From positions 17,360,001 through 17,424,000 of the forward strand of contig OX485806.1 of assembly GCA_950295325.1 (NCBI GenBank): 64,000 bases of DNA, read 5' to 3'. Every line of letters starts with the position of its first letter. The stretch's first letter is position 1. A program made the translations under genes and the position numbers. This DNA comes from Polytrichum commune. Taxonomy: Eukaryota; Streptophyta; Polytrichopsida; Polytrichales; Polytrichaceae. This document shows, piece by piece, positions 3,412 through 50,960 of this stretch. The notes beneath the pieces are model-generated. The model had not been told where the DNA came from. It saw only the letters and a program-made list of their open reading frames with translations, and did no database searches.

Positions 3412-4022
3412 CTAATCCCTCGTTATTTGGTTCATATCCATATCAATGATATTGCCACTAAACATCTCTTTGACATCAACAACTAATTGACCATGCATCA
3501 TTAAAGTAGTGGCATCACCTCCGGAGTTGAATCACAATTGTCTTTTTCTTTTTCTTTTTTGGCACAAATTGAATCACAATTGTCGACAAAAATGTGCTCA
3601 CCCCAAACAACAATATTGTTCCTTTTTGAAACATCTCTCGAAATGATTGGCGCCTCTTTAGGAACTTTCACAACAACAATAGCATTTACAACATCATGCT
3701 AGACACCTTTTGTAAATTGATGTAACGCTTGATGCAAGGTATTCAACACGCATTCGTTTGCAAATCTCGATCTAAATTTTTCAAAGCACGCTAATGGTCA
3801 TACATGGTCACTAGCAATTGTGCATAACTCCTGCATTCGAATCCAAATGTCATCACAAGAAGGTTGACAATATGCACTTTCCTATACAACATCACTTAGA
3901 CCACTCCCACAATTATAACCTTGAAGCTCGTGTTCTATTGTGATACACTTTCGTTTGTTTTGAACATCATCATACATGAGGCAATTTCCATCTCTAAATG
4001 ACTCTACGATAATGGCCCTCCT
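3412..4022 (-). pseudogene. Decayed coding fragment, family not recognised
   Basis: Read on the minus strand from about 4022 down to 3570, one frame is strikingly protein-like over ~145 codons and broken only by three stops (TAG, TGA, TAG), each explainable by one base change. Segments such as ESFRDGNCLMYDDVQNK, CDDIWIRMQELCTIASDHV and VKVPKEAPIISRDVSKRN have ordinary amino-acid composition. A second open stretch of about 36 codons (GGDATTLMMHGQLVVDVKEM, ~3525 down to 3412) follows in a shifted frame. I cannot assign a family. A transposon or captured gene fragment is most likely given the context. The A-tailed insertion at 3527-3584 interrupts it. Confidence 0.4.
3527..3584 (-). mobile_element. 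Micro retro-insertion with 16-bp target duplication
   Basis: TTGAATCACAATTGTC occurs twice, perfectly, at 3527-3542 and 3569-3584. The 26 bp between them read on the minus strand as TTTGTGCC followed by an A-rich tail (A6-G-A5-G-A5). A direct duplication of this length around an A-tailed insert is the signature of target-primed reverse transcription, here of an extremely 5'-truncated LINE or SINE copy. Confidence 0.55.
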
Positions 4023-4865
4023 AATGGTCATTACTTAGTACATAAACAATCATCATGTACTTTTGATACATCATAAACATGCATGTGTAGAGATTCAAAC
4101 CAAAGTCACGCAACCTTAAATAATTTAATTTGAATTTGAAATTGCTTCAATGGAATTCACCGAGGCATTTTAGGACACCAACCATATAAATGTGAACTTC
4201 GAATCAATATCAACAATTTTTTTCAATTTTTTTGGCTTTCTAACTTTGCAAATTTTATTTACAACACCTAAACAATTTGTGGTATGATAAGAAAATTCAT
4301 TGGGGCTTATGGGATTAACACCCCACTCAATGTGATATATAGTTAACAACAAAGATTGTTTGAAGGGGAGGCCACACAAGACCAAGAAGTGACAATTTGG
4401 TGGTGGCAACTACCAACCTGCTTTTTTGGGGATAAAAAATAGGAGATTGTTCCTTAATGGAATGGCAGTTGGAATGGAGGTTTGCCTCCACTCCAAACTG
4501 TCAATTCTTGAAAAAAGGCGGGTGAAAACATAGCCCTTGATTTCGGGAGCCAATGAAAATGCAACATAGGGTCTTACATGTTTGACTTAATGTTTTGGTC
4601 AATTTGTTAACTATTGAACTTTGAGGTGTCTGGGACATTGCATCTCTTCACTCTACCACATATCACTAAACTAACGAAAACGGTGGCTCATTTACACATG
4701 TGATGTGACTGCAAGTTTCAAGACATCCGGTTTCACCTCTCCGGTCTAAGACTCCGGCTCAGGCGTGTGCGGCCTCCACTTGGACAAGACCAATTGGGTT
4801 GCCTATCAATATGAGTGAAGGCAACCCACCTTTACTAACTTATGGATTGTAAATGACCAAAACTC
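4023..4865. other. No gene seen
   Basis: An 80-codon minus-strand open frame (4170-4409) has no recognised motif. It may be a further piece of the decayed coding sequence to its left, since it lies upstream of it on the same strand. Confidence 0.4.
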
Positions 4866-34959: not shown

Positions 34960-36095
34960 TTGTGCATTTATATTAAGCTTCCCAATCTAATGTGATTAAT
35001 GCCTCCACTACATGTACAAAATAAAAATCATTAATTAAATAGGCCTTTATTACTCGTAGAACCCACTTTCACTTTCCAAAGAGAAATTCATTGAACGATT
35101 TTTCATCCATAGCATGTATACCAATGATCGCATCAAACAAATAAAGGCAATAGGACAATAACTTAGCCACAATTCAAAGAGAAAAACTAAAGGGAGCCCA
35201 TGAGCCTCCAATTTGTGAAACCTAGAACTCAAATGCAAGCGTTAACAAGAATGGACAAGGTTGTCATTGAGGACATTACCATATGACAACAACATATGAA
35301 AACATGATTGGATGAAACTAACACATCTGTTATCAAATTTTTCTCCAAACCTTAGAGCCCCCTTTTGTACATGTACCTTTACTTCAAAATGCTTGATAGC
35401 CTTTCTAAATGTACACACTAGAGAAAAGTAATACCTCTCCCTTATGTATGTGTATGTTAATGCCTCAAATAGTTCCCCCCCCCCCCCGAATCCTTGACTC
35501 ATGTAAAACTATTAATGTACAAATTAACGTAAGTGTAAGAGGGGGTGTTATTTGAGGCATTAACATACATATACATAAGGGAGAGGTATTCTTTTTCTCT
35601 AGTGTGTACATCGAAAAAGGCTATTAAGAAATTTGAAGTAAAGGTAGGTGTACAAAAGGGGGTCCTAAGTTTTAGAGGAAAACTTGACAATAGATGTGCT
35701 AGTTTCATCCGTTTCACTTTTTCTTTCATTGTTGTCATATGGTAATAGTCCTCAAGGTCTATCCTATCCGTTCTTGTTAGGGTTTGCATTTTGGGTTCTA
35801 GGTGTTTACAAATTAGAGGCTCTTGCAATGCTCACGGGCTCCCTTGAGTTTTGCTCTCCATATTGTGGCTGAGTTATTGTGCTTTATTGTCTTTGTTTGT
35901 TTGATACAGTCATCGAGTTACATGCTATAAATGAAAAATTGTTCAATGAAATATTGTTCTCATTGGAAAATGAAAGTGGATTTCATATGTAAGAAAGGCA
36001 TATTTAACACAAGATATTTAACTATATCTTGTGTGTGTAATGGAAGCATTTAACACATTAAACTGGAAAGCTTCAAAAGTCCAAGGTGCAAATCC
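34960..36095. mobile_element. Large foldback (inverted repeat) element
   Basis: The left arm (~34960-35474) and right arm (~35546-36095) are inverted copies separated by a ~70-bp spacer holding a 13-C run (35475-35487). Anchors are GAGGCATTAACATACATATA next to the spacer, TTGTCATATGGTAAT, CAAATT.GAGGCTC, TGAAAAAT.GTTCAATGAA, and GAAAGTGG.TTC further out, then the weaker GCATT.AA.CACATTA.A. Identity is ~80-85% near the spacer and falls outward. A ~65-codon frame (TYIYIRERYSFSLVCT and relatives) is open in both arms, on opposite strands. No transposase was seen. Ends and target duplication are not resolved. Confidence 0.75.
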
Positions 36096-46557: not shown

Positions 46558-47921
46558 CAGTCTGACCTCGTTAGTATGACACTCGTTTATATGACACCCT
46601 CGATATTACGACACATTTTTGCACGACCAAACTTTTTAGTTCAAAACTCCCTCTTTTATACGACTACGACACTCAATAATACGACATTTAGAAACTCCAT
46701 TTTGTCATATTAAAGAGGGAATTAATGCTAAAAATCCTTTCATCCATGTTATGTACATCTAGAAATTCATCCATGTTTTCTTGGGAACTACTTGAGAACT
46801 TCACTTATCATTGGGAACTTAATGATAATTAGGGTTACTAGAGTAGAATGGACTTGGTTAGGGTATCTAAAATCGAAAGGTGATTATGATTTTGGATAAT
46901 GCATCTTCACATGTTGTTAGCTCTGTCAAAGTTGGTAAGTCTCGTGGTTTTTCAACCTTGGAATTGAGCAACATGACTTTGGTATTCCTTCCTCCCAATG
47001 TTACAAGCATAGTTCAACCTTTTCATCAAGGTATAATAGCATCTTTCAAAATTCAATACAAGAAGAAACTTTTACTGTGGGTTTTGACACAATATGATGA
47101 TGTTACATTGAAGGACTGAAAGAAGGGGGTGCCCAACATCAGACATGTTATCATGTGGCGTTGTGAAGTTGGAGTGAGTTGGATGCACGGATAGTTAAGA
47201 ATTGTTGGGGGATGGCGCGTATATTACCTGCAACATGGAATGTTGACTTTGCCCTAGTTGATGAAAGGGGGAAGGATAGAATGCAAAAAAAATTAGATGA
47301 ACTTGGTGCTATGATTTCAAAGTTGCAATTGGGTGATGATGAGATATCAATCAAGACTTACATTCAGATGGAAGGGGAAGAGACTACTGAGCTAGAATTG
47401 GTTACTAATGAGTTGGTGGATGTTGCTTTGAGAATCGATTATGCACAAGGCTTTGATCTTAATGTTGATATGCATTGAATAGATGTGGATGATGTTGCTC
47501 CACCTACAATATAGCGTAGTGATGCTAAACGTCATGCATCATTGTTGTCTAATTTCTTATTAGACAACTCTTTACATTTTGTTGTTAATGAAATTATTAG
47601 TTTTCAAAAGCTAGTATGAAATTTAGATAAGATGATAGTTGCTAACTTAGGTAGGCGACACCATAGATCTTTGAACTCTTATTTCAAGAGTTCGTGAGAG
47701 TATTTGTATTTGTTTGGAGTCATGAGTTATTATCTCATACAATCCATATTGCTTAAACTTGTTGTATATGTTTTTAAGCTCATATTGCTTATGTTTTTGT
47801 ATCCCCTCAATAGTTCGACAATTTTATGCCATTTGTCATATTAACGAGAAGACAACACCTCAATAATACGACATTTTTTGTTTGCGTTTCCCAAACGTGT
47901 CATACTAAAGAGGGAGAACAG
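46558..47921 (+). mobile_element. pogo/Tigger-like DNA transposon, defective
   Basis: The left end CAGTCTGACCTCGTTAGTAT and the reverse complement of the right end (CTGTTCTCCCTCTTTAGTAT) are inverted, improving inward (TTAGTATGACAC). Both ends carry extra subterminal repeats of TACGACA/TATGACA type. The right flank is TA; the left terminal bases are eroded. At 1364 bp it is shorter than autonomous pogo elements (~2 kb or more) because the transposase N terminus is gone. Confidence 0.75.
46871..47700 (+). pseudogene. pogo/Tigger-like (CENP-B type) transposase remnant
   Basis: Only the C-terminal half of the DDE nuclease remains. MILDNASSH (~46886) is the second catalytic Asp block. LSNMTLVFLPPNVTSIVQPF (~46966) is the conserved strand before the third one. 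QPFHQGI follows where the family has QPxDQG, so the third catalytic Asp has become His by a single base change. A frame change occurs near 47117-47180 (PNIRHVIMWR then SELDARIVKNCW). The C-terminal tail continues in the frame 47179-47478, then past stops as RHASLLSNFLLDNSLHFVVN up to ~47695. The helix-turn-helix and first Asp are absent. It would have recognised the terminal repeats of the element around it; the related-looking MITEs at 26484 and 28620 have a different end sequence. Confidence 0.75.
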
Positions 47922-48205
47922 TATCTCATTTGTGTAAGTGTCAGAGTATCTCATTTATCTTATTCATCTCACACATGATGGTAACTTTTAGGAGTGCAAA
48001 AGCTTCAATACCTTATCTTCATTGTGGGCCTTCCATAAAAATTAAAAATTAAAAAAAATTAAAAAACTTTGATAAGTGTGGATTAAGGTAGATGGGCCTT
48101 AAATAAGTGTTTTATCTGACCAGCCACTTCTCATAGGATATGACAAACGTAATTAGTGGGAGATGCTTAGCAAATCCAAATTGAGGCCGTAACCCCTTTC
48201 CTCAT

Positions 48206-49389
48206 GCAGACGATATGCTACCCCCTACGAGCTTTTCGGGGGGGGGGGGGGAATATTCTGTCAGGGGGCAGCCCCCGACATTTTTCCTGCACCCGCCCGA
48301 AAACTGCTGCCCGCCCGCCCGATTTCAAAAAAACTAGTGTACTTGCATTTTTGAAGGCTACTTGTCCACAAATCCCATATTGAGTGCACTTCATTTTCAA
48401 GGTCTCAAATGCAATATATATGTTTACTTCCATTGAGTAAATAAGCAATTGACTAGATTTCATTTTCAAAGTGAAACCGTCAATAAAGCATGTAATTAAC
48501 TTGGAAGTCAAAAATATTACAAAATCCTCATTACCACTGAGGTTATAATTTTTGTCACTTACAATTGAAAGGGACTTTGTCATTCTAAAATGAAACTAAA
48601 ATTTATGGTTTATTTTTATATTTTTATAATATATTTAATACCTTCTACTATTACAAAGTTTTCATATGCATTTAAACTAGTTAAGTAAGATTGAATGCAA
48701 CTAAGTCTAATAATTTCTGATTAATCCTAATTATAGAAACACAGAAGGACACTATATAGGGTGTAGTACACGGCTTTGGACATCGAGGAACACATAAGCA
48801 CTGTGAAGAACATGGATGTCATTCATCGTCCTTCATCGTCCTTCATCGTTTTTCATGTGTCCTTCATCGTCGCGAATATGTTAGACTTAGTTGCATTCAA
48901 TCTTACTTAACTAGTTTAAATGCATATGAAAACTTTGTGATAGTAGAAGGTATTAACTATATTGTAAATTATATAAAAATAAAAAAATAAATCATAAATT
49001 TTAGTTTCATTTTAGAATGACAAAGTCCCTTCAATTGTAAGTGACAAAAATTATAACCTCAGCGGTAATGAGGATTTTGTAATATTTTTGACTTCCAAGT
49101 TAATTACATGCTTTATTGACGGTTTCACTTTGAAAATGAAATCTAGTCAATTGCTTATTTACTCAATGGAAGTGAACATATATATTGGATTTGAGACCTT
49201 GAAAATGAAGTGCACTCAATATGGGATTTGTGGACAAGTAGCCTTCAAAAATGCAAGTACACTAGTTTTTTCGAAATCGGGTGGGCGGGCAGCAGTTTTC
49301 AGGCGGGTGCAGAAAAAATGTCGGGGGCTGCCCCCTGACAGAATATTCCCCCCCCCCGAAAAGCTCGTAGGGGGTAGCATATCGTCTGC
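48206..49389. mobile_element. 1.18-kb foldback element with 11-bp target duplication
   Basis: The element starts GCAGACGATATGCTACCCCC and ends with its exact complement. CCTTTCCTCAT lies directly outside both ends (48195-48205 and 49390-49400). The left arm 48206-48710 and right arm 48881-49389 pair for ~505 bp at roughly 95% identity, leaving a ~170-bp loop. The arms contain a poly-G/poly-C run of different length (14 G against 10 C). Long terminal repeats and a 9-11-bp target duplication fit a Mutator-type or foldback element without a transposase. The open frames at 48218-48583 and 49088-49450 are the same arm sequence read twice. Confidence 0.85.
48821..48870. repeat. 10-bp tandem repeat in the foldback loop
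   Basis: (A/C)TTCATCGT(C/T) units repeat at least four times, one of them interrupted by TTTCATGTGT. Confidence 0.8.
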
Positions 49390-49400
49390 CCTTTCCTCAT

Positions 49401-49849
49401 ATCGTAGTTCTCTAGTAGCTTGGGCACCTTTCATCCTAATAATTCATTAAAGTGTAAAAGTAAGTTAGGCAGCCCAAAAAATAATATTGAAAATTGGGAA
49501 TATTCAACAAAAAAATAAAAAACAAGTTAGACATTCATTCCCGTTTGCTTGTCTCATTCCCATTTTTTATGGTAGTGAATCAACATGACTTGTAGAGCAA
49601 ATTTATGCTTGTATTGTTTTTAGATCATGAGTAAGATTGATGTTGTGCAAAGACACTATTGAAGTTATTTGATGATACTTTGTTGGTTTCCACTGAATGT
49701 CACTTGCATTATTGTGATTTTAGGCACTCTTTGAATTATTATTTTTTTCTAGGGGGGGGGGGGGGGAGGGGACTCTCAACGAAATTAATTTCCTAGAAAT
49801 TTAGGCACCTTTAAGTTAATTATATTTCTACCCAAGTTGCTAGAGAGCT
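49401..49849. other. No gene seen; G15 run
   Basis: AT-rich apart from fifteen G at 49752-49766. Confidence 0.5.
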
Positions 49850-50960
49850 ACGGTAATTTTTGGGGCCCATGTGATGCTTATATGAACATCAATGCACGCG
49901 CATGTTATCGCTCCTCCACTACACGGGCTTTATTATTTTCGAAACTAAATTTAATATACACTTTGAGTCCACAAACTCCACATCTATGTTGCAACGACCA
50001 CTCTTCCATAGAGATTGGTACTCCAACTCATTTTATTGTACTCTCATGCTTGCCCAAAAAAAACCAACACTATTAAATTCCAACATAAACTAGCATCCTT
50101 TAATATTACTGCCCTCCCCCAACCCCAACACCCCTTCAAAACCATATACTCTCTTATGTCGAATTCCCAAAAAATACCACACCAAATCCCCCATTATTAA
50201 AGCAACATCATTATGTAAATGGGGCACCAATAAACCAATTTATTAGTTCCTTTGTACATGGTTCCAACCCCACTCCTATTCCAAATGGATCCTAGAAAAA
50301 GATCTTTTTAACATTGATAATGTTTCCTATAACCACCACCTTCTCCTCCTCACTTGTCATTGTCACCAAATAACACAAGACCAAATTTGACAAAACATCA
50401 GATCCACTTACTCGCTAGCACAACGCCGAGAGAGACGTTACATCAACCATGTTCTCCACGTCCCTCACCTTACACTATCAACTTAAGAATGCAACCCCAA
50501 TAAAGATATCATCACCACCCAACCCACCATCCAAATTCATCCCCCTTCCAGCCAATTACACAATCATACATGAGCCTACCAAACATCCATCCCTCGTGAC
50601 CGACTTTTTTGGGTAATGGGAGTGTTTCTCTAGTTCCATACCCTCCATGTCCCCTACTCTACAACCGCCCCCATAAATCTTTGCCATTGAACTACTCCTC
50701 ATGATTCAAAGATATATCACCATACTCCCTTGCAAACCCCCTAACCATCCATTAACTCTTAACATGCATCATTCCTTACCAAATCTCATCCTTCGCCCCT
50801 TTCTCTACAATCTTAATATCACTCACTCTTATTTTCCATCTCCCCTATATATGCCCCCTCCAATTTACTTAATATTATTCCCCTCATCATACTCAATTCC
50901 ATGGGCCCTACTTTCTTCTACCAATGGGTACGAATTTCTATTAGCCCCCCAACTTTAGAC
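49850..50960 (+). pseudogene. Probable 5' part of the C-rich LINE
   Basis: The composition (very low G, high C and A on the plus strand) is identical to that of the LINE segment at 52451-54290. Shifted frames give LINE-like phrases between the endonuclease and RT regions, for example FNIDNVSYNHHLLLLTCHCH (~50312), RERRYINHVLHVPHLTLS (~50428) and PRDRLFWVMGVFL (~50597), heavily broken by stops. I could not locate the catalytic RT box, so the call rests on composition, context and general appearance. Confidence 0.4.

Follow-up and report, generated by a model that had tools for sequence, protein, structure and literature searches.

Members of the Mutator-like (MULE) superfamily generate target-site duplications of 8–11 bp, mostly of 9 bp. 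The FARE foldback elements of Arabidopsis, reportedly described by Windsor and Waddell in 2000, have imperfect palindromic termini, and their large coding members bear the same long arms. FARE1, which has long palindromic repeats at both ends, is now classed as a MULE (PMC4486113). The same source describes MuTAnT of Medicago truncatula, 90% of whose copies are 200–300 bp long and which targets TA microsatellites, together with a putative Jittery-like partner of 4.9 kb (PMC4486113). In addition, MULEs bearing Ulp1, including KAONASHI (KI-MULE), are described from Arabidopsis, melon, rice and grapevine (PMC2528002, PMC13317346), and one of these sources reports Ulp1-bearing MULEs with terminal inverted repeats (TIRs) in grapevine and melon (PMC2528002).

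The element described here lies in a window of Polytrichum commune (the whole stretch of 64,000 nucleotides that was analysed, C4:17360001-17424000), and the genome searched comprises 408 Mb in 64 contigs, of which C1–C7 measure 42–78 Mb each. Judged from sequence comparison, it is very probably a non-autonomous foldback MULE that is likely to be mobilised by a group of 11–12-kb transposase elements, termed A, B and C below. Its features, in window coordinates, are the following.

48196-48204, no strand: left target-site duplication CTTTCCTCA, 9 bp, matching 49391-49399 at 9/9 positions, with a single similar copy at L049, the paralogous empty site
48205-49390, no strand: whole foldback element, predicted to be non-autonomous, delimited by the family boundaries (first base T here, G in the other 27/28 copies)
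48205-48236, plus strand: left terminal ~32 bp, common to the 11–12-kb autonomous-size elements (end comparison)
48206-48710, plus strand: left arm, 505 bp (self-alignment)
48711-48880, no strand: loop of 170 bp separating the arms (self-alignment)
48736-48823, minus strand: 88-bp loop piece, 96.6% identical to the stretch directly after the last long transposase frame of A (4175-4262 of joined L041 and L042)
48855-48881, minus strand: 27-bp loop piece, with an identical counterpart within the last long transposase frame of A (3699-3725 of joined L041 and L042)
48881-49389, minus strand: right arm, 509 bp (self-alignment)
49359-49390, minus strand: right terminal ~32 bp, common to the 11–12-kb autonomous-size elements (end comparison)
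49391-49399, no strand: right target-site duplication CTTTCCTCA, 9 bp, a 9/9 match at the family boundary

With arms of 505 + 509 bp in 1186 bp, the element consists almost wholly of long inverted arms. Their identity in the self-alignment is 95.1% over 514 columns, gaps counted, and the outermost 42 bp pair without a mismatch, so that the foldback with ~505-bp arms, perfect complementary ends and a loop of ~170 bp proposed by an earlier, sequence-only reading is borne out by measurement. The complementarity of the arms is far beyond chance. The ends that this reading had named, GCAGACG...CGTCTGC, are present and flanked directly by CCTTTCCTCAT on both sides, but the family boundary has to be moved outward by one base on either side (G before GCAGACG, C after CGTCTGC), and the family termini are GGCAGACGATATG...CATATCGTCTGCC. 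The predicted RNA fold of the element contains 502 arm-to-arm pairs at -891.8 kcal/mol; control windows of equal length gave -272 to -335 kcal/mol in four of five cases and -575 in the fifth, a window that turned out to contain another inverted repeat. Folded as single-stranded DNA, the termini behave as imperfect palindromes in the window copy (z -2.6), in element A (-3.2) and in one foldback with the D-type end introduced below (-2.5). Elsewhere in the window, a further imperfect palindrome of ~1 kb with arms 77–86% complementary piecewise occupies 35022-36020, and a search for an exact 8–10-bp target duplication around it found none.

The same end (hereafter A-type) stands at both termini of at least 27 further loci, which are distributed across all seven large contigs and have common boundaries and different flanks. 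Counting the window copy, at least 25 full-length matches were found among the best 40 of 2246 candidates in the genome search. Genome-wide, there are 51 exact occurrences of the 19-bp end versus 0 for a reversed control, and 111 of a 17-bp end with at most two mismatches versus 8 for its control. The boundaries of the other genomic copies, on which the earlier reading had staked its interpretation, are the same to within one base. Pairwise divergence among 25 copies (the loopless L012 and L023 were left out) averages 2.0% with a minimum of 0.09%, so part of the family spread recently, and the nearest relative is at ≤0.35% for 13 of them. The nearest relative of the window copy is at 1.5%, which places it among the older ones. 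There is also a weak hint that conversion may occur between arms: the two arms within one copy differ by 2.1% on average (0 in L013), and the values between copies are 2.7% for left versus right, 2.1% for left versus left and 1.7% for right versus right. A 3.4-kb relative, L027 (C5:5043905-5047291), has exact A-type ends, broken-up arms, other inverted sequence in its interior and no target duplication.

The search for autonomous-size relatives sharing the end, which had been proposed from the sequence, was successful: long-distance end pairs led to A (12.0 kb), C (12.0 kb) and B (11.2 kb), elements with a predicted MULE-type transposase. The terminal ~40 bp of the foldback match these 11–12-kb elements at 82–90%. 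A and C are 99.4% identical; C has a 9-bp target duplication, GTCCAAGCC, and B one matching at 8/9 positions (both read by eye), A has a 66-bp terminal inverted repeat of 88% identity, and A lies in a G run that masks any target duplication. The Pfam MULE domain is the best match in A (E 2.3e-5, 25.2 bits) and B (E 5.9e-5, 23.9 bits), scores that fall under the curated 27.6 bits. A C48 peptidase match was obtained in C (23.4 bits, E 6.3e-5) and B (27.9 bits, E 2.5e-6), with a curated cut-off of 20.7 bits, and this Ulp1-like frame lies on the strand opposite the transposase frames. No Pfam hit was found in the long frames on either side of the MULE domain in A, nor in a 2-kb stretch of L044 with stops read as X. 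Among the best 94 of 539 candidates, the 449-codon frame of A has at least 99 genome matches; five copies, A included, are open and at least 98% identical, and many others contain stops.

As the earlier reading had claimed, the foldback itself holds no transposase, and its arms are without a match to the transposase frames of the 11–12-kb group. Furthermore, the arm body of ~460 bp is absent from A, B and C in a whole-element search, so the arms do not merely represent the termini of a master element that suffered a deletion. A word-7 search of A and B for it gave nothing beyond two chance-level matches in B (E 0.67), and the first 12.0 kb of element D (13.35 kb, discussed below) do not contain it either. 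Arm matches listed in the genome search are 95–100% identical (best 40 of 2743 candidates).

The 88-bp and 27-bp loop pieces are matched in A and C; of the 27 A-ended foldbacks examined, 25 have them, L012 and L023 being the exceptions; the 27-bp piece adjoins CCTTCATCGT repeats spaced 10 bp. The two pieces keep the order of the large element and the stretch between them is missing, which is consistent with a break at the apex having been mended by copying from the large element. We envisage that a transposase made elsewhere would bind the two matching ~32-bp ends and move the foldback by cut-and-paste, leaving a 9-bp target duplication. The putative source is the 11–12-kb group, which shares these ends and has an Ulp1-like peptidase on the opposite strand, and the foldback is thus probably mobilised in trans. 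As to the origin of the loop, we infer that a break at the palindrome apex may have been repaired on a large-element template, with amplification following.

The same hairpin and loop invite another reading, in which the element is a silencing locus whose read-through transcript is diced into small RNAs against transposase elements, much as hairpin-derived small RNAs from the rearranged Mu killer locus of maize reportedly silence such elements. The predicted RNA does fold almost completely (the 502 pairs given above), and the loop holds 115 bp from a transposase element. Since the double-stranded arms have only ~40 bp in common with the transposase elements, however, hairpin silencing of the transposase is not favoured; coding sequence is in common over 27 bp at the margin of the loop, an Rfam search of 47500-50500 gave no match at gathering score, and a repeated element with target duplications is ordinary for a transposon. 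We consider a silencing locus improbable; the hairpin may be a source of small RNAs.

The target-site duplication was examined in 28 junctions comprising the window copy, 26 loci (L001-L026, with the second foldback of L018) and the 3.4-kb relative L027. The base preceding GCAGACG is G in 27 of the 28 and T in the window copy. An exact 9-bp duplication stands at the family boundary in 20/28 copies, the window copy included, and a near-perfect or 10-bp one in five more (8/9 in L003, 10/10 in L013 and L026, 9/10 in L019, and 9/9 in L008 once shifted by one base, as read by eye); it is absent in L002, L010 and L027. In 560 comparisons with shifted controls, never more than 6/9 positions matched. 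The family duplication is thus 9 bp, sometimes 10. Viewed in isolation, the window copy has an 11-bp perfect direct repeat, and the sequence-only reading had taken it for an 11-bp target duplication, which would make the element a distinct foldback class with ends GCAGACG. Against such a class stand the outer G in 27/28 copies, the exact 9 bp at the outer boundary in 20/28, and L006 and L009, which match over 11 bp at the inner boundary too, despite the usual outer G and C. A true 11-bp duplication is rejected on this family evidence, and a separate class is accordingly very unlikely. For the window copy, the most plausible reading is a 9-bp duplication, CTTTCCTCA, next to a terminal base that has changed, or else a 10-bp duplication that has lost a base, and its lesson is that the target duplication should be read from the family and not from a single copy.

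An empty site carrying a single target copy, which the earlier reading had anticipated, exists as a paralogous site. Among the best 40 of 2152 candidates in a genome search with the joined flanks, no place matches across the junction, one left-flank match at C6:39718499 stops at it, and many right-flank matches start within a few bases of it. The locus around C6:39718499, L049, is without both the foldback and the neighbouring 49402-49853 insertion, aligns through the site as TTTTCCTCA-TA-AATTTTAGAGCCC with the window flanks joined minus both elements, and has the target once. By this alignment, L049 is a diverged paralogue and not an allele of the same locus in another individual. Empty sites have no power to separate duplications of 9, 10 and 11 bp, because all three yield an identical joined sequence. 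The insertion at 49402-49853, which adjoins the right target duplication of the foldback, is a repeat of 452 bp bordered by TA at left and right, and six copies elsewhere start at, or no more than 8 bases from, the same point. Short inverted ends are recognisable on inspection and from reverse matches, although the repeat-finding output has no entry for these ends, and the repeat resembles a miniature element of the TA-inserting (Tc1/mariner-like) kind.

The assignment to Mutator or foldback elements made from the sequence holds, given mostly 9-bp duplications, common boundaries and long relatives that share the ends and have a predicted MULE-type transposase. The terminal sequence, which could then be placed in no named family, now points more narrowly to foldback MULEs with likely partners that contain an Ulp1-like gene. 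Foldback structure occurs in several superfamilies, and Galileo of Drosophila is a foldback of the P superfamily. The nematode element Mcmar, which is mariner-like, is likewise mentioned among foldback structures (PMC3169594). A P-superfamily or Tc1/mariner foldback is nevertheless highly improbable here, since the duplications are of 9 bp, the elements that share the ends have a predicted MULE-type transposase and the loop pieces come from one of them. That the inverted arms arose by chance or as an artefact of assembly, without mobility, has next to no likelihood, for although assemblies do contain inverted duplications and a few relatives have inverted flanks, the 27 further loci on seven large contigs share boundaries in differing flanks.

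As a foldback MULE, the element appears to work like Arabidopsis FARE1. It resembles FARE in its size of ~1.1–1.2 kb, its inverted arms of ~0.5 kb, its 9-bp duplications and its termini able to fold into imperfect hairpins; it differs in that A, B and C have only the terminal ~40 bp and the two loop pieces in common with the foldback. The likeness is one of structure, and the window element is therefore not filed as a FARE member. Similarly, the Ulp1-like peptidase of the 11–12-kb partners lies in reverse to the transposase, as in KI-MULEs; the latter are described as non-TIR, whereas A has its 66-bp inverted repeat of 88%, and the foldback itself has no match to the Ulp1 frame. MuTAnT elements are also foldback MULEs of the non-autonomous kind, for which a putative autonomous partner with the same ends is described, and MuTAnT leaves 9-bp duplications where it inserts outside TA repeats (PMC4486113). 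Tm1 of root-knot nematodes is another Mutator/foldback element with mostly 9-bp duplications and transposase-coding members, but its arm is mostly 13–15-bp repeats (PMC3169594), and the self-alignment of the window arms reported none.

Foldbacks with the same arm body also occur with other ends. L018 and L031-L039, which were found by arm similarity alone, have this arm body and a D-type end, GGAGGACGTTAAGTACC, except that L035 and L037 instead have GGCGGACGCTAAACACC (type X), and the end of a more distantly related foldback in L031 is of type Y. Both ends of an element are of one type wherever both were seen in L001-L040; just one end is visible in L028-L030 and in L039, and neither in L040. 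In L018 and L031, two foldbacks of differing end types lie within ~1 kb. Conversely, ten loci chosen as D-type end pairs (L058-L067) all match the arms, with exact 9-bp duplications in five, inverted flanks in four and neither in one. With at most one mismatch, the D-type end occurs 257 times in the genome versus 5 for the control. It matches the 13.35-kb element D, which has a perfect 9-bp target duplication, CTAGAATAG, at 30/31 positions. The putative transposase of D is assigned from its protein and DNA similarity to A, the frames being 66% and the aligned DNA 67–74% identical; none of five D reading frames had a Pfam match at E 0.05, and no Ulp1 domain was seen in these five. By coordinate comparison, several other transposase relatives (64–66% identical, one 76%) lie ~8–12 kb from D-type ends.

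Some D-ended foldbacks have unusual surroundings. In L059, L066 and L067 (all on C6), the flanks are mutually inverted, with 100 bp identical or nearly so, and the palindrome extends past the foldback in L068 4192-5747 (C1:25181491-25183046) and in L069. In L070 3854-6285 (C4:38944553-38946984), a D-ended foldback sits at the centre of a 2.4-kb palindrome (86%). Such inverted flanks could be captured sequence, or a larger palindrome could have grown around the foldback. Furthermore, L056 and L057 contain foldbacks with ends GCAGACGATATCCTACC and arms 77–80% like those of the window element, and the right side of B has that end.

One arm body of ~480 bp thus occurs with at least two kinds of end, the A-type of the 11–12-kb group and the D-type of the 13.35-kb lineage, and for this we propose, with belief and doubt evenly balanced, that the foldback is a parasite which switched from one host enzyme to another, exchanging its recognition ends, taking its loop from the new master and then spreading. 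In this scheme, the terminal ~28 bp would have been replaced with the rest of the arm nearly unchanged, the new end would have been copied onto the other arm inside the palindrome so that both ends match, the new master would next have supplied the loop, and the spread of the family would have come last. The palindrome is probably broken and mended at its centre, a process that could explain both the exchanged centre and the matching ends. Two copies, L012 and L023, combine A-type ends with the 182-bp centre of D-ended foldbacks (95–98% alike) and look like possible intermediates.

The two ends differ at 7/32 aligned positions, one gap included, and the arm bodies of A-ended and D-ended copies diverge by 6.6% on average (minimum 1.7%, maximum 13.8%) in a set of 90 of the 98 possible arms, 8 having been dropped as their aligned part was too short. 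The probability of end differences such as these arising by drift is 1e-6 at 1.7% divergence, 0.0002 at 3.8% and 0.004 at the mean of 6.6%; at the largest divergence of 13.8% it is 0.14, with which drift alone is compatible. In a quick tree, a single clade was not rejected for A-ended (p 0.96) or D-ended copies (p 0.81), and both held trees fit better than the free one. A careful tree, which kept 28/54 A-ended rows, likewise did not reject a clade (p 0.33 A-ended, 0.18 D-ended), and its well-supported branches force at least two changes for the D label and one for the A label. Arm diversity is 8.3% in D-ended versus 2.3% in A-ended copies, and an exchange in the direction from D to A would be favoured, because the D-ended copies are more diverse. 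The existence of the further end types X and Y means that ends may also simply evolve fast, and an end evolving fast in step with its transposase is a possible alternative. No title or abstract opening on end exchange was found in the literature searched on foldback MULEs, an absence that is not proof.

Taken alone, the window element is one more foldback MULE, and it is its relatives that make it useful. If the proposed exchange of ends is true, these relatives preserve the steps by which a palindrome without transposase exchanges its ends, gains a piece of a large element and spreads, and a single genome would allow one to test how non-autonomous transposons select the enzyme that mobilises them and how they switch to another.
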